Virus record (IMG/VR): IMGVR_UViG_3300032286_001250
Span: 1-52,226 of that record
Reading direction: 5' to 3' (one strand)
DNA length: 52,226 nucleotides
DNA from: a virus
Shown here piece after piece: positions 36,772 to 48,461 of this stretch (its first letter is position 1; the number at the start of each line of letters is the position of its first letter). A program made the position numbers and the translations under genes. The notes beneath the pieces were generated by a model. The model saw only the letters and a program-made list of their open reading frames with translations. It was not told the DNA's origin and searched no databases.

Positions 36772-38055
36772 TTACTTGGTGGCGGTGAGAGGACGCTTCC
36801 AGGCTTCCGCTTGCCGTTGCCGGTAAGCCGAGACCGGCTGGTCGGCGTCGTGACGCTGCGCTCCGCGCAGGGCGGTGCGAAGGCGGGAGGTGTGGTCGAC
36901 CGCGTCGCCGCGCTCGTCTTCACCGTCCTCGTCGTCTTCCTCTTCGTCGTCACCTTCCTCGTCTTCGAGGTCGTCCTCGGAGTCGTAGTGGGCGGCGAGC
37001 AGGCCGTCGACCACGCCGTGGACGTATTCGTCGCTGGCGTCGTCGGAGGGGGAGGAACCGGTCAGGTTCTCGAAGGCTTGGGCGTAGAGGTCGTCGTCGC
37101 CGATGCCGTCGAACTTGAAGTCAGGCTCGAAGGCGGGGGACAGGCGTTGAAGGGTGGAGAGGCGGGCAGCGACCAGTTGGTCGAGCTCCAGGGCGTCGAT
37201 GCGAGAGGCGCCTTCACCGTCGCTGTTCCCGAGAGCGTTCTCGAGGGCGTCGGCGCGGCCTTCGGCGGATTCCTTTTCGGTGGCGAGGGTTTCGAGTGCT
37301 TCCTCCAGCTCGTCAACCCTGGCTTGCAGGGCTTCGTTGTCGGAGGTGGCGGCCTGCAGCTGGCGTCCCATGTCCCTGGCGAAGGACTGGACCGCCGTAG
37401 CTGCTTCCGCGGGCAGATCGATCTCCAGGCCGTCGAGTTTGACGGTAGCCATGAGGGGAGATGCAGTTGGATTGATGGGTGACACCGAGTCGTCCTCGTG
37501 CTCGGCCACGGCGTCAGCCGCATCCATGCGATCGAGGAGAAGTCGAACCTCAGGGCCGGCACGGCCTCGGGGGACGATGGCGATGTGGTTGACCCTGATG
37601 TTGCGCTGGACGCCGTCGTAGGACTCGCCCTCGGGGGTGAATCCGGGGGTGGGGTCGAAGTCGACCTTGTAGCCGGCGGAGACCTCGGTGGCCTCTTTGC
37701 GCTTGATGCGCTCGACGGAATCTGCGTCGGTGACGACGAGAGCCACTTCTACAAAGCCATCAGAGAACTTGACTTGGGAGCCGGATGTTCCCTTGCTGAA
37801 TTCGCTGGTGTTTGTTGCGTCGAGGAGGACCGGGGGGTGGGTCCACGTCACGGGTTTCATGCCGAACGTCGCGAGGGTGTCGGGGTTGCCGACTTCCTCG
37901 GGCGGGCGATATTCCCGGACCTGGGAGCCATCAGCACGCCGGTACAGCTGTGTGCCCGTGCGAGCCGCTCGACACCAGACCCTGAGGTAGCCCTCGGGGG
38001 TGGTTTCGCTCCTGGTGATAGGGGCGAAGTCGTAGCGGCAGACTGATGCGTCCAT
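36772..38055 (-). CDS. Prohead protease-scaffold fusion (DUF2213-like)
   Basis: A 427-residue protein. Residues 1-175 resemble the DUF2213 protease: RSETTPEGYLRVWCRAARTG, VTWTHPPVLLDATNT, VALVVTDADSVERIKRKEAT, EVSAGYKVDFDPTPGFT and IRVNHIAIVPRGRAGPEV. H158 and nearby polar residues are candidates for catalysis. Residues about 200-290 form a coiled coil (DNEALQARVDELEEALETLA), and the rest is very acidic (DLEDEEGDDEEEDDEDGED) before a basic tail, as in scaffolds. An in-frame ATG (37450-37452, MATVKLDGLEIDLP) could produce a separate scaffold without protease. Confidence 0.75.
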   Translation of the reverse strand: MDASVCRYDFAPITRSETTPEGYLRVWCRAARTGTQLYRRADGSQVREYRPPEEVGNPDTLATFGMKPVTWTHPPVLLDATNTSEFSKGTSGSQVKFSDGFVEVALVVTDADSVERIKRKEATEVSAGYKVDFDPTPGFTPEGESYDGVQRNIRVNHIAIVPRGRAGPEVRLLLDRMDAADAVAEHEDDSVSPINPTASPLMATVKLDGLEIDLPAEAATAVQSFARDMGRQLQAATSDNEALQARVDELEEALETLATEKESAEGRADALENALGNSDGEGASRIDALELDQLVAARLSTLQRLSPAFEPDFKFDGIGDDDLYAQAFENLTGSSPSDDASDEYVHGVVDGLLAAHYDSEDDLEDEEGDDEEEDDEDGEDERGDAVDHTSRLRTALRGAQRHDADQPVSAYRQRQAEAWKRPLTATK

Positions 38056-38117: not shown

Positions 38118-38333
38118 GTGGCGATTCACAGGCAGCTTGTAATGTGTCGACGACTGCGTGTACTACGTGAGGAGAAGTTGTTGACGCAGAGTGACGTTGC
38201 AGAGAAGCTGGGGGTTAGTCAGGCTGCGTATTCAAGGCTGGAGAAAGGTGAGATTGAGGTATCGCTGAATAAGCTGATCAAGTTGAGTGAGTTGTATGGG
38301 TTGTCGCTTGCGGTGTTGTTAGAGGGGGTTTAA
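38118..38333 (+). CDS. XRE-family HTH regulator, lone plus-strand gene
   Basis: A 71-residue protein from GTG 38118, or 63 residues from ATG 38142. It is almost entirely a helix-turn-helix domain: RVLREEKLLTQSDVAEKLGV, SQAAYSRLEKGEIEVSLNKL, KLSELYGLSLAVLL. It is the only plus-strand gene between 11.7 kb and the right edge, divergent from the protease-scaffold gene and convergent with the kinase-like gene (9-base gap). The imperfect palindrome CCGCAGAGCGG (about 38098-38108) in the 62-base divergent gap is a candidate operator. Its AT-rich DNA differs from the head genes. It may repress late genes or act as a Cro/CI-like switch, or be a moron. Confidence 0.8.
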   Translation: MAIHRQLVMCRRLRVLREEKLLTQSDVAEKLGVSQAAYSRLEKGEIEVSLNKLIKLSELYGLSLAVLLEGV

Positions 38334-38342
38334 GTTTTAGCT

Positions 38343-40025
38343 TTATGTAGTGGCCACTGGTGTGCCGAAAGGTTTTTTGCGCTGAGCTGCAAGACGTGCC
38401 TGGCGTTCCGGTTTAAGGGCCATGAATAAGTTTGCTGGTTTAAGTCCCATATTTTTAGCACCTTGTCTAAATAGTGTTGGATCGTTCATGTTGACCTGTT
38501 CCATAACCTGGCGTTGGAATGTATTGGCGTTGGCGGTTAGTATGCGGCGGGTGAGGCCGGGGATACGAGGCTGATCAGCGCCACTAACAAAACGAGAACG
38601 GGGTTTGCGATCATCCCACAAAAGCTCGGTTTCAATCAGATCGTGAAAACGGTTGATGGCTAGTTCGTACTTGTCCCAAGACTTATTGTAATCACGGGCT
38701 TGCGCTTCTACATTGTTAAATACCCCGGAGTATCTTTTCTGAAAATCGGTGCTGTTTAACCCTACAAAGTCTGGAAGTCTGTCCAAGTCGTACATTATGT
38801 TTTCTACGCCATCGCGGTTGTGTGCTACATGGGGAGCGTCATCGATCTGAGTTGAGTATCCAAAATCAACTAACGCTATTCTTTTGGAACGATCATTAGC
38901 CAGTATATTGCCACCATGGATGTCACCGTGTGCCAAGCCTTCTAGGTGTAGCTTGCGGAACTCTCGCAACGCTTTGACTTTGATAATGAGTGGCGCGTTG
39001 CCTAGGTTGTAACCTCCATTGGAATACACATCCGAAATTTCTTTGTAACCCTGCATGTGCCGCAAGGTCAAAGTTTCTCTAGAATAGCCGTCAGCGCTTG
39101 TGCTGCTGTTTATGGCTAAGGGCTCCGGGACGTTGACTCCTGCAGCGTGAGCTTTGCTCAGTCTGTCGAACTCCCATTCGGCCATGCCTATGTCGGGGTC
39201 CGAGTCACGAAATAGCTTAATCCCGTACTTCTCAGAACTGTGAACGAAATATGTACCAAAAGCACCAGCCCCAGCTTGACAACGCGGTGTGGGCACCATT
39301 GCGTCGAATTTAGCTGGGGCTAGTGTCTTTCCCAGGCTGCCACCGCATTTAGCTTGGGTCTCTGCTTGACGTCTAGCATTTATCTTTTCTTGAACTTCCC
39401 ACTTGTGATCGTGGGCTAAAGCCTCGTCAATAATGCGCTGATTCTCTTCGGGAGAGAGCTTGGGTGTATTGCGTGGGTTTTTAGGCGACTGACGCCACTC
39501 GTCCATGCTTTGGAATTTACGTTTTGCCAAATAAGCACCTCCAGCAATAGCTCCAGCGACAAGAGCGATTTTAGCTGCAGTTACGCCTGCGTTGTTAGTG
39601 GTAGTTCCCGCACCCTTACCGCATTTGTAGCCTTTGGGGATGTGTGAAGCCCCGCAGGGCTTGCCTTTGGCGGCCTCGGGGGAATCCTGGCGCAGCCGGG
39701 GTTTGCCTCCGGCGCCGTTGCGGGCGCGGTTGGTGGAGGGGGCTTCAAGGGTTGTGCCCCCCGAGGACGTGTGAGAGATGTCGGGGCCGCCTTTGCTGTA
39801 GATGCCGCGCCGGCGGCGCTCACGGTTCAGCGCGACACGCCGGTCGACTTCGTTGGGCTGGCGGTTGATGGCCGCCTGGTGGCGCACCTTGCGACGGCGG
39901 GCCTTGGGGTGGGTGCGGTAATAGGCCGTGGAGTCGCCCTCGGGGGCGTCGATCGTTACCAGGCCGAGGACTTTCCCGGCGTGAGCGCGGCGTCGCGGCG
40001 GCTGGTTTTGCCCGAGCACTTCCAC
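38343..40025 (-). CDS. Virion-block protein with kinase-like C-terminal domain
   Basis: A 560-residue protein (GTG 40023-40025, 70-base overlap with the upstream gene). Residues 30-110 are a basic phage module (YYRTHPKARRRKVRHQAAIN, ..., RRRGIYSKGGPDISHTSSGG). Residues 124-135 carry the C-G-x3-I-x5-C motif (CGASHIPKGYKC), and 150-167 a membrane helix (AAKIALVAGAIAGGAYLA). Residues about 250-400 form a kinase fold: Gly-rich GAGAFG, Lys270 (YGIKLF), Glu285, HGDIHGGNIL with Asp368 and Asn373, and DFG at 387-389. All core catalytic residues are present, so phosphotransfer is plausible; the class (RIO, APH or Kdo-like) is uncertain. DNA from about 39600 down is AT-rich, so this domain looks imported. 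Confidence 0.75.
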   Translation of the reverse strand: MEVLGQNQPPRRRAHAGKVLGLVTIDAPEGDSTAYYRTHPKARRRKVRHQAAINRQPNEVDRRVALNRERRRRGIYSKGGPDISHTSSGGTTLEAPSTNRARNGAGGKPRLRQDSPEAAKGKPCGASHIPKGYKCGKGAGTTTNNAGVTAAKIALVAGAIAGGAYLAKRKFQSMDEWRQSPKNPRNTPKLSPEENQRIIDEALAHDHKWEVQEKINARRQAETQAKCGGSLGKTLAPAKFDAMVPTPRCQAGAGAFGTYFVHSSEKYGIKLFRDSDPDIGMAEWEFDRLSKAHAAGVNVPEPLAINSSTSADGYSRETLTLRHMQGYKEISDVYSNGGYNLGNAPLIIKVKALREFRKLHLEGLAHGDIHGGNILANDRSKRIALVDFGYSTQIDDAPHVAHNRDGVENIMYDLDRLPDFVGLNSTDFQKRYSGVFNNVEAQARDYNKSWDKYELAINRFHDLIETELLWDDRKPRSRFVSGADQPRIPGLTRRILTANANTFQRQVMEQVNMNDPTLFRQGAKNMGLKPANLFMALKPERQARLAAQRKKPFGTPVATT

Positions 40026-40957
40026 TTGGCGCGGGAGAGGCAGAGGGGGGTGTTGCGCTCGGCGCCGGAGCAGTCGTAGCCCTCGGATTTCATGTCGCCG
40101 AAGGAACGGGCGCAGTAGTTATCGCCCTTGGAGGTGCCGGGGGCGATGGTGTAGCCCTTGGCGCCGTAGCGGACCTTGTTTTTGCGGCCGGTCTTGGGGT
40201 TGGTGACGACCTTGGTGTACTTCTTGCCGTCCTCGGTGTCCTTCTGAGCTTGGGCCTTTCTCAAACCTGAGGAGGTTGGGACGCAGTTGGGTACTTCGCG
40301 CTTGCCCTTGCGCTTCGTGCCAGCCTGAACGTAGCCCTCCCAGCAAGCATCGTTGCGCGAGATGGGGAAACTGCGGAGTAGCCGGGGGGTGAGGAGAGCG
40401 TCGCCTCGTGGGGTGTCTGAGAAGCGGGGCTTGCGGTAGCCGGGTTCGTAGCGGCGGCGCAGCTTCTCGATGGTGAGGTTATGCCGGCGCACACCGCTGC
40501 GGACGGAGGCACGGGCGGCTTTGCCGGACTTGTGCATGGCCGAAGCCACGGCGACGGTGCGCTCGATCTCGGCCTGGGCTGCCTTGGAGATGGCCTGCTC
40601 CGCTTCGCGGTTGGCGGACTGAGCAGCCTTGTGGAGGCGTTCAGTCTTGGACGGTGGACGCATCGTGGCGAGGGGGCCGTCCTCAGGGAAGCGCATCGAA
40701 GGTGGCTTGGCCGTGGCGCGGTGGACGGCCTCGGTGACACCCTGCTGTGCGGCGCGGCGGGCACGGCCGGGAGCGTTGAAGATGGCCTTGCGGGATCCCT
40801 TGAACAAGAGCGCACCGCCGACGGCGCCTGCGGTGAGGCCGGCGGCCAGGGCCGCTCGGCGAGGGATGGCGCCACCCTTGTGGCATGTCTTTCCCTGGGC
40901 GATGGCGCCCTGGCCACACTTCAGGTCGAGGCGGAGGGTGGAGGGGGTCAGGCTCAT
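39956..40957 (-). CDS. Virion-block protein with Cys motif, membrane helix and phage Cys-rich domain
   Basis: A 333-residue protein (ATG 40955-40957). Residues 14-25 are CGQGAIAQGKTC, followed by a membrane helix at about 33-53 (RAALAAGLTAGAVGGALLF) and a basic helical middle. Residues about 205-230 have CWEGYVQAGTKRKGKREVPN with a following CVP. The last 70 residues have YGAKGYTIAPGTSKGDNYCA, then GYDCSG and LCLSRAKWKCSGK. The CW-x-GY...NCVP and KWKCSGK elements recur in phage structural operons from memory, without a known function. High Lys/Arg content suggests nucleic acid or membrane contact inside the capsid. Confidence 0.6.
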   Translation of the reverse strand: MSLTPSTLRLDLKCGQGAIAQGKTCHKGGAIPRRAALAAGLTAGAVGGALLFKGSRKAIFNAPGRARRAAQQGVTEAVHRATAKPPSMRFPEDGPLATMRPPSKTERLHKAAQSANREAEQAISKAAQAEIERTVAVASAMHKSGKAARASVRSGVRRHNLTIEKLRRRYEPGYRKPRFSDTPRGDALLTPRLLRSFPISRNDACWEGYVQAGTKRKGKREVPNCVPTSSGLRKAQAQKDTEDGKKYTKVVTNPKTGRKNKVRYGAKGYTIAPGTSKGDNYCARSFGDMKSEGYDCSGAERNTPLCLSRAKWKCSGKTSRRDAALTPGKSSAW

Positions 40958-41397
40958 TGCAGGTTGGTCAGCTTGTAAAGCGTGGAGTCGATCAGCTTCT
41001 GGATCGTGTCGATCTCGTTCTGGATCTCGCTGTCGTTTGCAACAGCGCCGCGGGTGTTGCGGACGTAGTTGCTCAGGGCCGTGACGAAGGGGATCGGCTG
41101 GCCTGTGGGGATGGAAGGGCCGTCGGGGTAGCTGTCGAGGACGCCGTATTTGCCCTGGTAGGCCTCGATCAGACCGTCAGTGAGTTCCTCGAGCTCGGAG
41201 TAGAAGGTGCCGAGGGCTGAATGCTGGCTAAAGCTGCGGCTCTTCAGGTGGAGGAGGTGGCCTGTGGTGACGGCGTCGAGCAGGGTTTTGAAGAACTCCC
41301 CGGCGGCCTGGGGGTCGGTGTTGCCGGCCTCGGGGGAATCGTGGCGGGTGGTGGTGGGGGCGAAGCCGGTGGCCCAGACGGAGGAGGTGCGTGTCAC
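40954..41397 (-). CDS. Ferritin-like helical protein (DUF5856-like)
   Basis: A 147-residue helical protein. AGEFFKTLLDAVTTGHLLHL, KSRSFSQHSALGTFYSELEE, LTDGLIEAYQGKYGVL, and ending EIQNEIDTIQKLIDSTLYKL. The H...E..H spacing in the first helices and the Y-S-E-L-E-E-L-x-D-x-L-I-E-x-Y pattern resemble the DUF5856 phage family with a Dps/ferritin-like four-helix bundle. The function is unknown; metal binding or DNA protection has been suggested for the fold in general. It overlaps the downstream gene by 4 bases and lies between two C-G-x3-I-x5-C proteins. Confidence 0.6.
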   Translation of the reverse strand: MTRTSSVWATGFAPTTTRHDSPEAGNTDPQAAGEFFKTLLDAVTTGHLLHLKSRSFSQHSALGTFYSELEELTDGLIEAYQGKYGVLDSYPDGPSIPTGQPIPFVTALSNYVRNTRGAVANDSEIQNEIDTIQKLIDSTLYKLTNLQ

Positions 41398-41407
41398 AGC
41401 GGTGCCC

Positions 41408-42847
41408 TCAAGCGCCGATGCGTTGGAGTGATTGAGTCACTTCGCGGGCGTGCTTGTGGCGGAGGGCCTGCATCTCACTGCGTGAGGCGCCTTTGGTACG
41501 TGCTCGCTTCAGCTCGGCTTCTTGGCGCGGGCCGAGTTTACTCATCGCAGATTGAATCTTCGCGTTATTGGCTCGTCCTGCTTGATATTGACCGCGAATA
41601 GCCTTGCCGGTCTTATAGCCCAGAGCTTCGGATGCACCTCCCAGTGCGCCAACACCAGCGCCGTAGGCAGTACCGCCTGCCGCACCAAGGAGGGCACCCT
41701 TCACAGCACCGCGACCACCGCCGGTCAATGCGCCGATCGCAGCACCCCCGAGGGCACCACCGATAGATCCACCAATCGCGCCCTGTTTCACCCCGAGTTT
41801 CGCCATCTGCTTCACGCTGGATGGGTCTACACCACGCTTCACGTAGTAGGGATGGACGGTGTTAGTAAGTCCACCGAGCGCTCCACCACCTGTCCACCTG
41901 TTCTGTGTAGGGCCTCCGCCTGCACCTTTGTGGCACTTCTCGCCTTTGGAGATGGCGCCTGCACCACACTTGATGTCTTCGCGGATCAGGCCGTCGAAGA
42001 CGGCGGCGTCAAGGGTGAAGCCGTCGGCGTACATGGAGTCTGCCCACGGGCTCTTAATGCTCCCGCCAGGGCCGAGCTTCGGTTTGGGCATCGGCTTGTT
42101 GATACGGCGGTTGACCATGCGCTCTTTGTACAGCTTGTTCTTGCCGACTTCGAGACCGACTCGGGCTTTGCGTGCCCCGGTGGCGAAGCCGCTGCGGGCG
42201 CGGCCGAGACCTGAGCTGGCGGTGCGGCGGGCCATGCCCATACCGGTGCGGGCTTTGCGCATGCCGGTGGAACCGGCGGTGCGCAGGCGGGGGGCAGCTT
42301 TGCGCAGGGCAGAGCCGGCACGACGGAAGGCGCCGCTGCGGTGTCCGCCGTAGGCCAGGGCGGCGACGCCTCCGGCGATGGCGGCCCCGGTGGCCACCCG
42401 GCGTGCGGTGCTGCCGTTGTTCTGGCTCTGGCCGCCGGAGGAGCGGAAGTCTTGGCGGAGGGCGTCCTCGGTGTCGAGGCGGGCACGGATGTAGGCCTTG
42501 GGCTTGTTCTGGATCCCGAGGTCGCAGGCGTCGAGGTACTCCTGCGGGGAGAGGGCGTCGTTGTTCATGCGGGAGTTTTTGCGACCGGGGTTGTAGAGCT
42601 CGCCAGGTCCGGCGGAGGTGTCACCTTCCTTCTTGCCCGTGCAGGGTTTGCCAGCAGCGCAGGCGGAGCAGGAGCCGTCCTTGACGGCCTTGCGGCCACG
42701 ACGACCGCGGCGTCCTTTGGACATGGGGGGCATGTCTTCGGAGCCTTCGCGCATCTGCTCGTCGGGTGATTCTGTGGACTCGTCGTCCGGGGATTCACCG
42801 GCCTCGGGGGCTGAAGGCTTGGGGCGACGGCGCATTGCGGCGGGCAT
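41408..42847 (-). CDS. Virion-block protein with Cys motif and glycine-zipper membrane domain
   Basis: A 479-residue protein (ATG 42845-42847). An acidic N-terminus leads to a first Cys cluster at 60-69 (CSACAAGKPC), a hydrophobic segment at 151-166 (VATGAAIAGGVAALAY) and a very basic stretch at 170-260. The shared motif CGAGAISKGEKC follows at 294-305. Residues about 356-404 are a glycine zipper (AIGGSIGGALGGAAIGALTG...GAAGGTAYGAGVGALGG), a pattern able to insert in membranes and oligomerise, as in phage ejection proteins. The end is basic and helical. I infer a capsid-internal protein that enters the host envelope with the DNA. Confidence 0.6.
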   Translation of the reverse strand: MPAAMRRRPKPSAPEAGESPDDESTESPDEQMREGSEDMPPMSKGRRGRRGRKAVKDGSCSACAAGKPCTGKKEGDTSAGPGELYNPGRKNSRMNNDALSPQEYLDACDLGIQNKPKAYIRARLDTEDALRQDFRSSGGQSQNNGSTARRVATGAAIAGGVAALAYGGHRSGAFRRAGSALRKAAPRLRTAGSTGMRKARTGMGMARRTASSGLGRARSGFATGARKARVGLEVGKNKLYKERMVNRRINKPMPKPKLGPGGSIKSPWADSMYADGFTLDAAVFDGLIREDIKCGAGAISKGEKCHKGAGGGPTQNRWTGGGALGGLTNTVHPYYVKRGVDPSSVKQMAKLGVKQGAIGGSIGGALGGAAIGALTGGGRGAVKGALLGAAGGTAYGAGVGALGGASEALGYKTGKAIRGQYQAGRANNAKIQSAMSKLGPRQEAELKRARTKGASRSEMQALRHKHAREVTQSLQRIGA

Positions 42848-42883
42848 GGGCGTAGGGCGTGTGCCCGAAAGCGTTGGCCCAGA

Positions 42884-43759
42884 TTATCGCTGTAAAGGAG
42901 TGGGGGTAATCTGCTCAAAACTTGCTGGCTTGTTCAGCGGTACGGTTTCAGGGAGACGTACAGCCTTCGCAACATCTTTCTTATGTGTTTCACGCATCTT
43001 CTCGTATTCGGGATCCATTGCATTGGTGTCTTCATCCCAGGGGGCCAAATAGCACCGGCAGCGGGGATGGATGGGAACTTTGACGTCTCCGCGTTTGTAG
43101 ATGTGGCCAGCACGAGGGGCACAGTATGGGCAGCTCCTGTCATCTGCAGTCGCGTAGTACATAACCTGCGAGATGCCGCGAGCTGCGTAGTAGGTGTCTG
43201 AAGCGTTGTTGTAGGCGCGAAGCGCCTCGGTGCGGACGATGACGTTGGCGCGGGACTTGACGATGCCGAGGCGGCTGCGCATGTCCTGGACCATGGCGTC
43301 AGTGGGCCGGCCTTCGGCAATGCCTTGGGCGACGGTGGTGGCAGCGGTTTCGGCGAAGGTCTGGCCGTGCTTGGCGAGGTAGCCACGGGCCTGCTTCGCA
43401 GCCTCGACGGTGGCCTCGATGGGAATGGAGACGTCGATGCGGCCGTGGCCGGGAAAAGCGGCCTCGGTGAGATCGTTGGCAATGGCCAGGCCTTGACCTT
43501 GGGCAGAGAGGGCGAGGTTTCGGAAGATTCGGTCATAGGCGTCGACCCGATCGGGGTTGTAGGCCGGGACCAGGAGGCGGAACTCGCGCAGCAGGGACAG
43601 GTTGCGCTGGGCCGGGTCGATGATGCCGGCCTTCATCTGGGCGCGGACACGGATCACCAGGCGGCGGAACGCTGCATCGAGGACACCGTTGAGGAGGCGG
43701 ATGGTGCCGTCCTCGGTGGTGCGCAGGAGTTCGTTGTAGCGCTCAATCAGGCTGGACAC
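42884..43759 (-). CDS. Head morphogenesis protein (MuF-like)
   Basis: A 291-residue minor head protein (GTG 43757-43759, overlapping the upstream gene by 13 bases). The N-terminus is helical (IERYNELLRTTEDGTIRLLN). The C-terminal part matches the Mu gpF family: VIVRTEALRAYNNASDTYYA, YYATADDRSCPYCAPRAGHI, ..., PIHPRCRCYLAPWDED. The CPYC...HPRCRC cysteines and histidine probably bind zinc. MuF proteins bind the portal inside the head, and in some phages carry toxin domains; here the flanking genes may play that part. About 60 residues follow the Cys-rich end. Confidence 0.8.
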   Translation of the reverse strand: MSSLIERYNELLRTTEDGTIRLLNGVLDAAFRRLVIRVRAQMKAGIIDPAQRNLSLLREFRLLVPAYNPDRVDAYDRIFRNLALSAQGQGLAIANDLTEAAFPGHGRIDVSIPIEATVEAAKQARGYLAKHGQTFAETAATTVAQGIAEGRPTDAMVQDMRSRLGIVKSRANVIVRTEALRAYNNASDTYYAARGISQVMYYATADDRSCPYCAPRAGHIYKRGDVKVPIHPRCRCYLAPWDEDTNAMDPEYEKMRETHKKDVAKAVRLPETVPLNKPASFEQITPTPLQR

Positions 43760-46593
43760 TTGGCAGCCTGGTAGTGGCGCTTAGCTGCTAGGAACATGCG
43801 CACACGGGGTGGTAGCTCATCCTCAGCGTCACCACGGATCATATTGCCGATGTACTCGAACTGGTTGTCCGGGATCTCAGTGAACTTACCCTGGTTTTTC
43901 AGTGCCCAGAGTTTGTCGCCTTTCAGATTGGGAAGAGCCTTAAAGCCCATCTTCTCATAGATTGATTTGCGCTTGCCGCCTTTGCCGTCAGCTTTGTGCG
44001 GCACAGCGAACAAGAAAGCGTCATCCGGTAGCATATCGAGCTGAGCACTATACATCGCTTTTGTGGTCTTGATCAGCTGCTTGGCTTGTTTGCTTGGGAT
44101 GTCTGTGGCGGCGTCGTATTTTGTATCCACAGTGAATCCAAGGCCGAATTGCTGAAACTTCCCGACGTCAGCTTTGTGCTCAGCGCCGAAGGTTAGCAGG
44201 CTGTCACCCACGGAGCCGATAGAGATGTGCCCACCACTAGGTGTGGACCATGTGGAGAAATTATTGTCGATGTCTACAGCTCTGATTTGAGCTCCCTGGG
44301 CTTTTAGTGCCATGTGGGCTGCCCCCAGCTTGGCATCACCTACAAGCCTACTGACAGGGTCACGGAAGTTCTCGGGGAGCTTGGCGATAGCCTGCTTCAC
44401 TTGTTTGGCTGAGAGACCTTGTATGGCTTGTTGACTCAGGTTAGGGACAAGTGTTGAACGATTCTTGTACACAAACAAGCTGCCTGCCGTGAGAGCAGCG
44501 GCCCCGGTGACAGCAACTACAGCCGCGGCTGTCTTTACTTTTGAACGTGTGGAACTTTCTGGTGCGCTGGGCTGTGAAGGTTCTCTCTGACTGGGCGCAG
44601 CACTGGATGAACCTGGGGTTTCACCGCATTTGTGGCCTTTAGGGATGAAGCTGCGACCACAGGGCTTGCCCGTGTGCTGCGCTGCAGTCTGGAAATCCAG
44701 GCGACGTTGGACCTCCAGGAAGGAACGCACTCGTGGGGGGAGAGCGTCGCCGCGGAGGTGGGCCTGGTCGTAAGCCGTTTCTGCAGAGCCACGACTCCCG
44801 TATATGCGCTGTTTGTCAAGTCCTTGTACCCGCTCAAGTGAGCTCACAGCTTGAGCACGAGTCTCGCGCCTGGTTACATTCTTAATGGTGACTGTTTTAT
44901 TAAAATTGATGCCGCTCAAGTCGTAGTATTGGCGACCTGACGGATTGGCTAGCTGCTGGCGCTCCCAAAGTCTAATTTTACTCTCTTTCCCTGGTACTGC
45001 GTATTCGAGGCCGGGTTGGCGTTGGATAATGCGGAATGCCTCAGCTATAGATGTTACTTTCTGGCCAGACCAGTCGGCAGCAGCTGTAAGAGCTTCGCGA
45101 TCAGTAATGGCGAAACTATTGACGCCTCTTACCTTTGTGTTGAAGAAGGCTTTGTTTACAACCACCCCAGCCGAGGATCCGGGGACGGTGAGCCGGCTAT
45201 TCATAACGGCTGCTACGTGTCGTGCATGGGCGTATTCAGCATCTTGCAGGAGTTGGGCGCGATTTCGTGCGCTGCCTTCTAATTTTGTATCTAGTTTCAA
45301 TTCATCCGCAGTACGCGCATAGAACTTGTCGAATTGACTGAGAGTATCGTTATACACACGCTTGGCTTCGCCGTTAATCACCTCTGTCCTATTCTGGAAC
45401 AATAGATAGCGTTCGACTGTGTCGACGGCGTCGCTGCGCATGCTGTCTGGGAGATGCACACCGCTCTCGGTGAGAACACTGTTTGCGAATGCTCGGCGAG
45501 TGCGCTGCCGCGTTAGATCTACGCCACGCTGTACGGCCAGTAGCTGGAGTGCGCTTGATTGATCTTGAATTTGGTCTGCCAACGCACGGACAACTGCATG
45601 ATCGGTGCTGAGCCGACTGATGTTACTACGATCGCGCAAGCTGAAAGTGTCAGCCAGGAATTCTTTGGTGGCATCGCCGCTGTACACAATACGATTCGTA
45701 GGCTTGCCGAAACGATCTTTCACGCGAATGTCAAAGAGCTTTCGTGTGCTTTCACGCAACCATTCCTGACGAGTTACGCCTGGAGTGTTTTGAGCAAGGC
45801 GCACTTCTTCGTTGATGTGGCTGCTGATTGCTGCGGAGTAGCTCGTCGTCGTCGAAATGGTGCGGGGGAGCGGGGCGCCTGGCCGCTCAATCTGAGCCAG
45901 CATCGAGGCTGGACCAACACTGTTGGTGTGACGCAGGCTTTGGGCGATGGAAGCTGCGCTCTGTCGCCCTCGGAGGCGGGTGTTTTCCCGTGGGCCGAGG
46001 GCGCTGGGATCGAAACGGCGGACCACGCCCATGACGGCGTTCTCTCCGGTATCCATTGCCCGACTGAAAGTGTCGAAAGCTGCCTTGTTAAAGGGTTGGT
46101 AGACCCGATCCCTATAAAAAGGGATATTGGCGAGACCACGGTGTGCAGCAATACCACCAGCGACGGCGGCTGTGATACCTACAATTAAACCTGTACGCTT
46201 CAGTAGCTCTTTCTGCTTCTCTTTCTTGTCTTGAATGTTGCCGGGAGTGGCTTTGACCACGCCGCGGACGATGGCGCGGCGGCCGGCGTCTACCTCGGCG
46301 ACGCTGCCTTTCTTGATGCCCTTGATGACGCGGCGGAAGCCACGCTCGATTGAGGCGGCTCCGCCGACGGGGTCGGTGGTGGCGGCGCGGAGGTGGTTGT
46401 CGGTGCCCTCACCCTTGAGGCGGCAGTCCCAGTTGGGTGGGATGCAGCGGTTGCCACAGAGTTTGTTGGGTGGGGTGCATTTGACGTTGCGGCGCGTCTT
46501 GCCGGAACGGCTGAGGCCGGGGGCGTCGAGGCGGGCCTGGGCGGCCAGGAAGGTGGCGGCGCGAATCTCGGAGCGATCTGGTGTTGTGGTCAT
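43747..46593 (-). CDS. Large modular virion-block protein with two Cys motifs
   Basis: A 948-residue protein from ATG 46591-46593, with Shine-Dalgarno GGGAGGTG six bases upstream and an ATGA overlap with the portal gene. First unit: FLAAQARLDAP, then the motif CGNRCIPPNWDC (residues 46-57), a membrane helix at about 133-150 (RTGLIVGITAAVAGGIAA), and some 450 residues of unknown domain. Second unit: LPPRVRSFLEVQRRLDF, motif CGRSFIPKGHKC (645-656), membrane helix KTAAAVVAVTGAAALTAGS, and a domain ending DAFLFAVPHK...SIYEKMGFKALP, which resembles the C-terminus of GNAT acetyltransferases. A third partial unit closes the protein: LPPRVRMFLAAKRHYQAAKC. It looks like repeated cassettes fused in one chain. 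The 43.8-46.2 kb DNA is AT-richer than the portal gene. Confidence 0.6.
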   Translation of the reverse strand: MTTTPDRSEIRAATFLAAQARLDAPGLSRSGKTRRNVKCTPPNKLCGNRCIPPNWDCRLKGEGTDNHLRAATTDPVGGAASIERGFRRVIKGIKKGSVAEVDAGRRAIVRGVVKATPGNIQDKKEKQKELLKRTGLIVGITAAVAGGIAAHRGLANIPFYRDRVYQPFNKAAFDTFSRAMDTGENAVMGVVRRFDPSALGPRENTRLRGRQSAASIAQSLRHTNSVGPASMLAQIERPGAPLPRTISTTTSYSAAISSHINEEVRLAQNTPGVTRQEWLRESTRKLFDIRVKDRFGKPTNRIVYSGDATKEFLADTFSLRDRSNISRLSTDHAVVRALADQIQDQSSALQLLAVQRGVDLTRQRTRRAFANSVLTESGVHLPDSMRSDAVDTVERYLLFQNRTEVINGEAKRVYNDTLSQFDKFYARTADELKLDTKLEGSARNRAQLLQDAEYAHARHVAAVMNSRLTVPGSSAGVVVNKAFFNTKVRGVNSFAITDREALTAAADWSGQKVTSIAEAFRIIQRQPGLEYAVPGKESKIRLWERQQLANPSGRQYYDLSGINFNKTVTIKNVTRRETRAQAVSSLERVQGLDKQRIYGSRGSAETAYDQAHLRGDALPPRVRSFLEVQRRLDFQTAAQHTGKPCGRSFIPKGHKCGETPGSSSAAPSQREPSQPSAPESSTRSKVKTAAAVVAVTGAAALTAGSLFVYKNRSTLVPNLSQQAIQGLSAKQVKQAIAKLPENFRDPVSRLVGDAKLGAAHMALKAQGAQIRAVDIDNNFSTWSTPSGGHISIGSVGDSLLTFGAEHKADVGKFQQFGLGFTVDTKYDAATDIPSKQAKQLIKTTKAMYSAQLDMLPDDAFLFAVPHKADGKGGKRKSIYEKMGFKALPNLKGDKLWALKNQGKFTEIPDNQFEYIGNMIRGDAEDELPPRVRMFLAAKRHYQAAKCPA

Positions 46594-48461
46594 GCGTACA
46601 CCTCCCAACCTGCTTTGAGGGAATCGGCTTCGACCTCGGGGATAGGTGTCAGTCCTGCCACAGTTTGTCGAGGCCAGAGTTTCTCGAGTCCGCTGCGGGC
46701 GGCGCGGAGGGTGGCGAAGCCGGTGACATAGGGACCTGGGACCAGCTCGTCTGCTCGTGCGAACGACGCCCGGTAGAGGCGATAGGCGCGGGTGCGCTGC
46801 GGGCCAAGCACCAGGAGGGGAGCGTCGGCTGAGCTGTCGGTGCGCTGGCCATCGGGGCCGACGAGGTAGCCCGCCCGGACATCGCCGGCAGTGTGCGTCA
46901 CCCGGATGCGCAGGCCTCGGACTTCGTAGACATCGAAAGCGTCCTGCTTCGCGTTCGGGTCGGGCTCTGCCGGCAGGATGCCTCCACCGTTGGTGGGGTC
47001 TGGCTCCGCCGGAGCTGCTCCGCCCTCGGGGGGCTGTGGGGCGCTGGGATCAGCCGCAGGCTGAGGGTTGAGCATGGCGTCCTGCTGCGCCTGCATTGAG
47101 AGCAGGGAGTTCTGGAACTCCGCGTCGGCCTGGGTGGCCAGCTGCTCGGTGACCGCCTCGTTGAGGGTGGTTTCGGTGCTGTAGCTGGTGCCGCCGAAGC
47201 GGGACTCGCGCACTTCGATCGCCTTGAGGACACCGGAGTTGATGTATTGGACGTCGGTGGCGGCCGTGTTGGCCCGCAAGTTGGCCTTGTCCTCTTCAGT
47301 CTGGGTGAAGACGGAGGGGAAGCTGACGGCCCAGGACTCGGGGGGCTTGCCGCGGGTCGGGCCTTCCCGGCTGAGGAGGATGTAGGTGAAGGCCTCGGTG
47401 AGGGCCGGGCGGCAGTAGACCTCTTGCCATTGCTCGACGATCGAGGCCCAGACGCGCTCCTCGAAGCGGCCCTCCTTGCCCAGGCCGCCGGGCGACTCGC
47501 CCATGAGGATCGAGGCGGGCCAGCCCGTCTCGGCCTGCAGGGCGGTGACGAAAGGGTCGGTGGCCGAAGCGATGTTGCCTAGGGCGCGGCTCAAGAAGGT
47601 GACGTCCTCCTCGGTGTCGATCGCCATGCCCCCATAGAGGGAGCGGGAGAGGATGTTGGCCTCCAGGCGTTTGCGCATCCCCTCCTCGTTGCCCTGGGCG
47701 AGGCGGTTGAACAGGCCTGGGATCTTGTGGACGAACAGGTCGGCGTCGGAGACCATGTTCTCAAGGCCGGCCAGGGCCGATTCGTAGCGCTTATAGGCGT
47801 GCCACAAGAGCTGCAGGACTGACTGGCCCCAGCCTGTGTTACGGGTGCGCAGCTGCCAGGGCAGATACAGACCGTCGAAACGTGCTACACGACTGTGATG
47901 CACATGCACATCGACATACGCTTCGCGTTGTGCGTCGGTCAGCTTCTGACTGGTGGTGATCCGGTAGTGCTCAGGCTTGGAGTAATCCGCTGAGGTGAGC
48001 TCCGTCGGGATCAGCTCCCAGCGGGAGAGGGGGATGAAACCCCGGATGGCCCGGATGCGGGAGGTGTTGACCGGTTCACTCTCGGGGAGCCCGTCGTCGA
48101 TCAGCATCACCAGGCCGGCGCCGCCGTAGAGGCGCTGGAGCTTGACGACCTCGGAGTAGGCCTGGTGGAAGTTCGTGTTCTTCAGGAACTCCTCGACCTT
48201 GGTGATCACCTCGTTGTCGGTGTTGTCACCCCCGAGGGTGATGGTGACGCGGTGCCGGAGCATCTCGTCGGCGACGCTATCTACCAGGCGCCGGGGAAGT
48301 CCGTTGAGATAAAGCTGCTCAAGTTCTACGCTGCTGAGCAGCTGTTGTACATTAACTTGTGTCGCTGTAGTCCGGTCTTTCCCGGTTGTACCCATTCCCG
48401 TCAATACATTGACTAAGGAACCGTCGTTCCGGTAATCTTCAGTAGGAGCGACGGTGGGCAC
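46590..48461 (-). CDS. Portal protein (DUF1073-like) with C-terminal extension
   Basis: A 623-residue protein (GTG 48459-48461). Portal elements: LVDSVADEMLRHRVTITLGG, QRLYGGAGLVMLIDDGLPES, RGFIPLSRWELIPTE, HHSRVARFDGLYLPWQLRTR, GWPASILMGESPGGLGKEGR and SFPSVFTQTEEDKANLRANT. It forms the dodecameric DNA gate. After a Pro/Asp-rich linker (residues about 475-515) comes about 105 residues not expected in a portal core: VYEVRGLRIRVTHTAGDVRA, GPQRTRAYRLYRASFARADE and TGFATLRAARSGLEKLW. A GTG start and no clear Shine-Dalgarno are noted. Confidence 0.85.
   Translation of the reverse strand: MPTVAPTEDYRNDGSLVNVLTGMGTTGKDRTTATQVNVQQLLSSVELEQLYLNGLPRRLVDSVADEMLRHRVTITLGGDNTDNEVITKVEEFLKNTNFHQAYSEVVKLQRLYGGAGLVMLIDDGLPESEPVNTSRIRAIRGFIPLSRWELIPTELTSADYSKPEHYRITTSQKLTDAQREAYVDVHVHHSRVARFDGLYLPWQLRTRNTGWGQSVLQLLWHAYKRYESALAGLENMVSDADLFVHKIPGLFNRLAQGNEEGMRKRLEANILSRSLYGGMAIDTEEDVTFLSRALGNIASATDPFVTALQAETGWPASILMGESPGGLGKEGRFEERVWASIVEQWQEVYCRPALTEAFTYILLSREGPTRGKPPESWAVSFPSVFTQTEEDKANLRANTAATDVQYINSGVLKAIEVRESRFGGTSYSTETTLNEAVTEQLATQADAEFQNSLLSMQAQQDAMLNPQPAADPSAPQPPEGGAAPAEPDPTNGGGILPAEPDPNAKQDAFDVYEVRGLRIRVTHTAGDVRAGYLVGPDGQRTDSSADAPLLVLGPQRTRAYRLYRASFARADELVPGPYVTGFATLRAARSGLEKLWPRQTVAGLTPIPEVEADSLKAGWEVYA

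Follow-up and report, generated by a model that had tools for sequence, protein, structure and literature searches.

A two-cysteine tag reused in head-region phage genes suggests a modular kit of virion-carried effectors

A short two-cysteine element, C-G-x3-I-x5-C (hereafter the tag), is reused in the head-region genes of a viral DNA stretch of 52,226 nucleotides (the window, i.e., positions 1 to 52,226 of IMG/VR record IMGVR_UViG_3300032286_001250), and the ends attached to it are enzyme-like and swapped among related viruses. Such reuse suggests a kit of proteins that the particle carries and passes to the host. We regard it as evenly balanced whether the tagged proteins are indeed a modular set of effectors that travel in the virion and are mostly anchored in membranes, the virion location and the delivery being the conjectural parts of this reading. 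A preliminary description of the window had interpreted these proteins in a similar manner, and as a whole that interpretation is partly supported.

Occurrence and context of the tag

The exact DNA pattern matches five times in the window, all on the minus strand and inside one gene block, and nowhere else, vs. a mean of 0.31 matches (maximum three) in 100 dinucleotide shuffles, none of which reached five. The five identically spaced copies thus stand in four open reading frames (ORFs) precisely where the preliminary description had placed them (all window coordinates below are on the minus strand unless noted otherwise). A 953-amino-acid (aa) protein carries two, i.e., tag 1, in the four-cysteine form C-x6-CGNRCIPPNWDC, near its N-terminus (46423..46458), and tag 2, CGRSFIPKGHKC, at the junction to an exchangeable C-terminal module (44626..44661). 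The others are found singly in a 479-aa protein (CGAGAISKGEKC, 41933..41968), at the N-terminus of a 333-aa protein (CGQGAIAQGKTC, 40883..40918) and in a 560-aa kinase-like protein (CGASHIPKGYKC, 39621..39656).

Most relatives came from a MuF search, i.e., a scan of viral contigs with the window MuF protein that gave 59 related loci, and from two pattern scans (83 and 96 overlapping stretches). In 58 of the 59 MuF-related loci the tag lies on the sense strand (up to nine per locus), with 255 sense copies vs. a single antisense one, not all of them independent as some contigs are near-identical (e.g., L038-L043). Tag number ranges from zero to nine among the 37 loci of 11 kb or more, 34 of which have three to nine, and one locus (L054) has a related MuF gene, other genes where the block would be and no tag, as expected of accessory cargo. 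Twelve long records (two of them, G004 and G007, with an identical block) contain 63 exact-pattern matches, 58 of them in one cluster per record and five elsewhere or antisense. A reversed control pattern also matched five times, so the motif is not equally common in unrelated proteins, the outcome that had been named as speaking against the proposed system.

From 805 copies in 605 ORFs (duplicates included, I/V/L allowed at position 6) 285 were kept at ≤75% identity. With the first cysteine as position 1, these show D/G at -2, K/L at -1, K/P at 0, S/G at 4, I at 6 (95%), P/S at 7, K at 11 (56%) and x-K-G past the last cysteine. The two cysteines go together: when their positions were freed and the rest of the pattern was required, 129 distinct matches had both, none had one and five had neither. 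A lipobox was ruled out by eye; the residue ahead of the cysteine is mostly K or P. We recognised no description of the tag in the literature, here open-licence papers.

Among the matches listed, the cultured portals nearest to that of the window belong to cyanophages, the closest being Synechococcus phage S-CBS4 (39.5%), which has no match to the tag pattern, followed more weakly by Aphanizomenon phage CL131 and Planktothrix phage PaV-LD. CL131 (MG209611) has eight tags, one with L for I, in the four genes gp044, gp045, gp047 and gp048 between the capsid and tape-measure genes, and PaV-LD (HQ683709) has seven tags in seven ORFs, all between portal and tape measure. For two of the PaV-LD carriers the deposited names are ‘virion structural protein’ (ORF081R) and ‘minor virion protein’ (ORF085R), the basis of which we have not seen. 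All seven PaV-LD ORFs (L201, 37000-63000) have a four-cysteine tag with similar flanks, and five are annotated merely as hypothetical. No gene is annotated as MuF in the stretches of CL131 and PaV-LD that were viewed, where no MuF search was made. A tblastn search with short tags in cultured phages gave nine, one and four records, the CL131 ones alone being meaningful, and for the whole 953-aa protein cultured phages gave no match with E ≤1. In bacterial genomes (one per GTDB species, stricter tag pattern) four stretches were found. Two are credible, both on one contig of a Thermosynechococcus bin, where the tagged proteins additionally have a DnaJ domain and an LRAT-like domain that scores slightly under cut-off; in the third, the tag stands in a 78-aa frame opposite longer frames and was judged a chance match, and in the fourth no ORF of at least 120 aa carries a tag. 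Several contigs of the genome behind the Thermosynechococcus contig (G013; L202, L203, L204 and L205) have tag-like copies, perhaps from more than one phage or prophage. Based on the occurrences in CL131, PaV-LD and this bin, we infer that the hosts of tag-bearing phages are cyanobacteria.

The block surrounds MuF and lies between portal and protease, as had been described. The gene order along the minus strand is the portal (46590..48461, Pfam Phage_portal_3 2.7e-57), the 953-aa protein (43747..46608), MuF (42884..43759, Phage_Mu_F 9.6e-13, no tag), the 479-aa protein (41408..42847), a DUF5856 protein (40954..41397), the 333-aa protein (39956..40957), the 560-aa protein (38343..40025), the DUF2213 head-maturation protease (36772..38055) and the major capsid protein. 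Phage_Mu_F is the sole Pfam family above cut-off in the MuF gene, and the exchangeable domains sit in other genes. The tail genes of the window include a 1923-aa protein weakly matching a tape-measure family. The DUF5856 gene has no tag, a point missed in the preliminary description; it belongs to phrog_858, named starvation-inducible transcriptional regulator, and similar complete ORFs number seven in the loci, counting the window and duplicates. A small ORF on the opposite strand ahead of the protease gene (38118-38333, plus strand) appears helix-turn-helix-like by eye, and S-CBS4 and CL131 have annotated transcriptional-regulator genes on the opposite strand ahead of a head protein or protease gene.

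Exchange and fusion of the tagged units

The sharpest view of exchange is given by the 953-type proteins, in which a conserved helical first module is followed by tag 2, a hydrophobic segment (44470..44526, Kyte-Doolittle mean 1.94) and, in the window, a GNAT-like module. A total of 142 pairs with ≥60% identity across ≥350 aa (non-independent, and chosen for little likeness more than 60 residues past tag 2) diverge a median of 52 residues past the first cysteine of tag 2, i.e., just behind the hydrophobic segment, and no pair diverges ahead of the tag; the best exchanged pair is 94% identical over 663 aa. The 101 comparable second modules fall into five groups without detected similarity: GNAT-like (52), LRAT/NlpC-like (36), HExxH (7), an unknown class with YRDVKV (4) and another (2). 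Five of the 35 first-module groups carry more than one class of second module and one carries three. A conserved part is thus joined to exchanged, unrelated C-terminal domains at a sharp junction, as in polymorphic toxins.

The units also fuse and separate, those fused in one phage being separate genes in another (160 non-independent correspondences). A single 1724-aa ORF in the locus L186 joins a GNAT-like module (39% to the window) with a kinase module (54%), whose window counterparts are separate genes at opposite ends of the block. This ORF holds kinase-type stretches (518-602 and 1418-1588), DUF5872 and the GNAT-like module, i.e., it is a multi-domain effector-type polypeptide coded among virion genes, as polyvalent proteins are.

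A hydrophobic segment lies past most copies, in agreement with the preliminary description. Each of the five window copies has such a stretch no more than 100 residues downstream (best 19-residue Kyte-Doolittle means of 1.37-1.94), and across the family a 19-residue stretch with a mean of at least 1.2 within 80 residues downstream follows 225 of 341 tags vs. two of 321 control segments from the same proteins (126 of 341 vs. one of 321 at a stricter mean of at least 1.6). Apart from the segment past tag 2, those of the window lie 79 residues past tag 1 (46132..46188, 1.50; helical in the model, helix 125-157) and past the tags of the 479-aa protein (41726..41782, 1.37, Gly/Ala-rich), the 333-aa protein (40799..40855, 1.51) and the kinase-like protein (39528..39584, 1.61).

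The attached domains are enzyme-like and of effector types. At E 0.01 or better, 43 long tagged proteins gave 18 matches to APH, 17 to ABC1, 17 to Pkinase, 14 to RIO and 14 to Kdo (overlapping kinase-type families), together with seven to LRAT, four to NlpC/P60, one to DnaJ and one, below cut-off, to ATLF. Among 64 further tagged proteins seven match DnaJ and two match ADPrib_exo_Tox (PF03496), and two tagged proteins match a PHROG family named RNA polymerase ADP-ribosylase. The CL131 protein gp048 combines five tags with alpha/beta-hydrolase family matches. In the window, the 560-aa protein consists of a phrog_6437 module, the tag, the hydrophobic segment and a kinase-like domain that matches Kdo (9.3e-7, 28.9 bits, cut-off 21.3) and APH (1.6e-6, 28.5 bits, cut-off 23.2) and stays below the RIO1 cut-off (20.6 vs. 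22). It keeps HGDIHGGNIL...VDFG, so that both profile and catalytic motifs place it with APH/Kdo/RIO-type kinases and its earlier designation as kinase-like is borne out. Its phrog_6437 module (NRARNG..., 39699-39935) precedes the tag; elsewhere, a similar module stands as a small untagged protein of its own, with DSIWAEGF at its end (e.g., L036:15632-15919).

The GNAT-like end proposed for the 953-aa protein stands at the level of predicted fold and has no Pfam match. Folded alone, the module reached a mean predicted local confidence (pLDDT) of 69.7, with most of the core above 80 and low values in the tag and linker. Its best Foldseek match was the AtaT toxin (E 7e-4, probability 0.98), followed by chains of Mycobacterium isocitrate lyase 2 (the acetyl-CoA-binding part of which we take to be GNAT-like), KacT and other acetyltransferases, and nearly all of its VIA matches are acetyltransferases by title, at Z ≤6.9, which can mean merely a common arrangement. 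The whole 953-aa model had no Foldseek match at or below 1e-3, and its top VIA match was a helical one to TorS (residues 75-202), the others being mostly GNAT. A glycine zipper had been suggested for the 479-aa protein, where a zipper-like segment is seen by eye without a Pfam match. The 333-aa protein holds a second two-cysteine motif, CWEGY...PNCVP (about 40259-40360), which matches several unnamed PHROG families (phrog_9737, 4359, 10346) and, as CWxGYxQxGxKxKxGKxVPNCVP, also adjoins tags in L199 and, partially, in L203.

Overall, the claim of a modular system near MuF in one phage group, with tag and hydrophobic segment ahead of variable and in several cases effector-like domains, is supported.

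Alternative readings of the tagged proteins

We postulate that the tag opens an exchangeable unit composed of R-x-D, a cysteine loop (CGxxxI-x5-C) that a disulfide presumably closes, a linker of basic character, in most cases one hydrophobic segment and a variable domain, and that phages of the cyanobacterial group hold several such units in the head-gene region, as separate genes or polyproteins. As late virion proteins they would enter the particle near the portal/MuF vertex and leave it together with the DNA; the loop would close in an oxidising compartment (the released virion, periplasm or lumen), and the hydrophobic segment would be a helix by which the unit is held in the host membrane, so that the enzyme stays at the entry site. 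Given that the swap point lies behind the hydrophobic segment, loop and segment would form the delivery part and the remainder the payload.

Several points weigh against this reading. Packaging is deduced from gene position and deposited names, and the evidence for GNAT, being structural, is moderate. The HExxH modules score below cut-off against Pfam ATLF, and in one locus (L197) DnaJ stands ahead of the tags, not behind them. The hydrophobic segment was defined from hydropathy: past tag 2 no helix is modelled with confidence, about a third of the tags have no such segment downstream, and Gly/Ala hydrophobic stretches could pack on protein instead of membrane. None was seen in the 48 residues viewed past each PaV-LD tag, and hence the segment is common, not universal. 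The net charge flanking it is symmetric (+2.3 on each side), and thus membrane orientation is not predicted. As for the loop itself, AlphaFold gave no confident structure for the two-cysteine tag 2 (pLDDT under 50), and the shared descent of the four-cysteine forms weakens the case for two disulfides that is made below, yet these forms occur in several different protein contexts.

A bolder version, which we offer as a tentative possibility, is a general, hitherto undescribed cyanophage address system in which a redox-switched cysteine loop and a membrane segment would load any attached domain into the virion and lock as a disulfide in the host envelope on entry, each particle delivering three to nine membrane-tethered enzymes at the site of DNA entry. 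If this were true, a tag of about 12 residues would find candidate virion-carried effectors of cyanophages, hypothetical proteins included, from sequence alone, and what phages bring into cyanobacterial cells beyond DNA would become testable. Another use of tag and hydrophobic segment might be as a portable address with which proteins are brought into phage heads. PaV-LD and CL131, the two tag bearers in culture, allow a direct test, and the study of CL131 gives the number of structural proteins in its virion as 23 (PMC6293099).

The flanks of the tag raise the alternative, in our estimate unlikely, that the element belongs to a processing signal, i.e., that the head protease has its sites at R-x-D and at the unit-end motifs (DSxWAxGF, LPPRVRxFL), that the polyproteins are cut in the prohead and that the cysteine loop is a recognition or protecting element. 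The internal proteins of T4 have capsid-targeting propeptides, to which this arrangement may be likened. The head-maturation protease adjoins the block, the units occur both fused and separate, and 268 of 347 tags have R-x-D (nine residues permitted at x) no more than 30 residues upstream, vs. 93 of 1041 random segments. Its distance is variable, with starts most often 5, 8, 12-13, 19 or 24 residues ahead of the tag (5-25 residues for all five window copies). The unit-end motifs stand at the C-termini of separate proteins and directly ahead of the next tag in fused ones. Of 151 single-tag proteins no longer than 450 aa, 86 have a loose DS[VI][WY]AxGF among their last 30 residues, vs. none of 28 longer single-tag proteins and six of 71 multi-tag proteins, and the motif can directly precede the tag where units are fused. 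In the 479-aa protein DSMYADGF (42017..42040), a motif that ends many small tagged proteins elsewhere, stands just ahead of the tag, and LPPRVRxFL occupies the unit-end place twice in the 953-aa protein, as LPPRVRSFL ahead of tag 2 (44716..44742) and as LPPRVRMFL near the C-terminus (43789-43815). The strict DS[VI][WY]AxGF also closes 17 untagged ORFs (12 distinct), and we consider this motif a candidate second address or processing signal. However, DSxWAxGF is absent from the C-termini of portal, MuF, protease and capsid proteins (the 14 commonest of each in these loci), none of the 12 distinct untagged carriers resembles these proteins, and the cysteine pair and hydrophobic segment are left unexplained. 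Processing is compatible with the effector reading, and the two can be true together.

It is rather improbable that the tagged proteins are instead structural, i.e., mosaic parts of an internal core, neck or ejection channel, in which loop and segment build an assembly or trans-envelope channel and the enzyme-like domains are secondary. Their position in the head region, the hydrophobic and Gly-rich segments and the deposited names of PaV-LD ORF081R and ORF085R would suit such a role, but one would not expect a core structure to swap unrelated enzyme-like domains and to conserve kinase motifs (HGDIHxGN, DFG), and the tag number varies from zero to nine among the longer loci.

Metal binding, with zinc or a cluster held by two cysteines per chain (by dimerisation) or by four, is more doubtful again, although the cysteines are paired in lysine-rich loops and four-cysteine variants exist. 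The four-cysteine form is a tag with one added cysteine upstream and one at position 5. Among the 285 tags, 39 have both extra cysteines, none has that at position 5 alone, 239 have neither, four have the upstream one at an odd place (in frames judged spurious by eye) and three are too short. In PaV-LD and the Thermosynechococcus bin an upstream cysteine accompanies all ten position-5 tags, at a somewhat variable distance, and the four-cysteine form accounts for seven of seven tags in PaV-LD and seven of eight in CL131. From a four-ligand site one would expect the joint loss of all ligands, whereas the main pair (the selection criterion for the 285 copies) is kept without both extras in 239 of 285, and this disfavors metal; the two-cysteine copies, moreover, have no strongly conserved third ligand (E 34% and H 25% at position 10). 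As the extra cysteines are gained or lost as a pair, disulfides fit better than a four-cysteine zinc site, and the pattern suggests two separate ones, C1-C3 and C2-C4. Of the zinc or disulfide role put forward in the preliminary description, the same counts thus favor the disulfide half and disfavor zinc. In the structure prediction of tag and helix that it called for, the four-cysteine tag 1 is given two short strands at modest confidence (residues 49-51 and 54-56, pLDDT about 66-69) and its downstream hydrophobic segment is modelled as helical; tag 2 has no confident structure and the segment after it no confident helix.

Chance or low-complexity coincidence is already refuted by the shuffles, the near-constant presence of the tag in the related loci, the clustering of its matches and the invariable pairing of its cysteines.

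Comparison with known systems

The pretoxin junction motifs of polymorphic toxins are likewise short conserved elements close to a swap point. Their sequence differs from that of the tag, and the swap point here comes after the hydrophobic segment downstream of the tag. PaV-LD and CL131 share the same tag with the window, but mostly in four-cysteine forms and in a different gene order. The capsid-targeting sequence of T4 is a cleaved N-terminal peptide without cysteines, whereas the tag is internal or N-terminal and has a cysteine pair and usually a hydrophobic segment. The R-x-D and unit-end motifs are candidates for T4-type head-protease sites. In other respects T4 Alt and the internal proteins with this sequence resemble the tagged proteins, i.e., as virion-carried enzymes with a short shared address, as far as the consulted part of PMC5512222 describes them; a further likeness to Alt is the ADP-ribosyltransferase domain (PF03496) in two of 64 tagged proteins.

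The polyvalent proteins of phages and conjugative elements are also multi-domain, effector-rich and coded among virion genes, and in the portion consulted their packaging and injection are inferred and processing by zincin-like metallopeptidases is proposed as likely (PMC5512222); ‘cyanophage’, ‘cysteine’ and ‘LRAT’ have no occurrences in that text. MuF polymorphic toxins, in the part of their description consulted (PMC5576092), share with the tagged proteins the head-gene context by portal and MuF and a conserved part joined to exchangeable C-terminal domains. They differ in that the MuF protein of the window has neither toxin domain nor tag, so that MuF and toxin are not found in one polypeptide, and in that the shared part here is a short cysteine loop with a hydrophobic segment, present several times per genome; ‘cysteine’, ‘cyanobacteria’ and ‘transmembrane’ have no occurrences in that text. 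By analogy with the arguments made for MuF toxins and polyvalent proteins, the adjacent MuF and portal, the head protease and domain types such as ADP-ribosyltransferase are in keeping with virion-carried effectors. The kind of system is thus already known, i.e., modular, MuF-associated, virion-linked phage effectors, and what is new is the reused cysteine loop with its hydrophobic segment.

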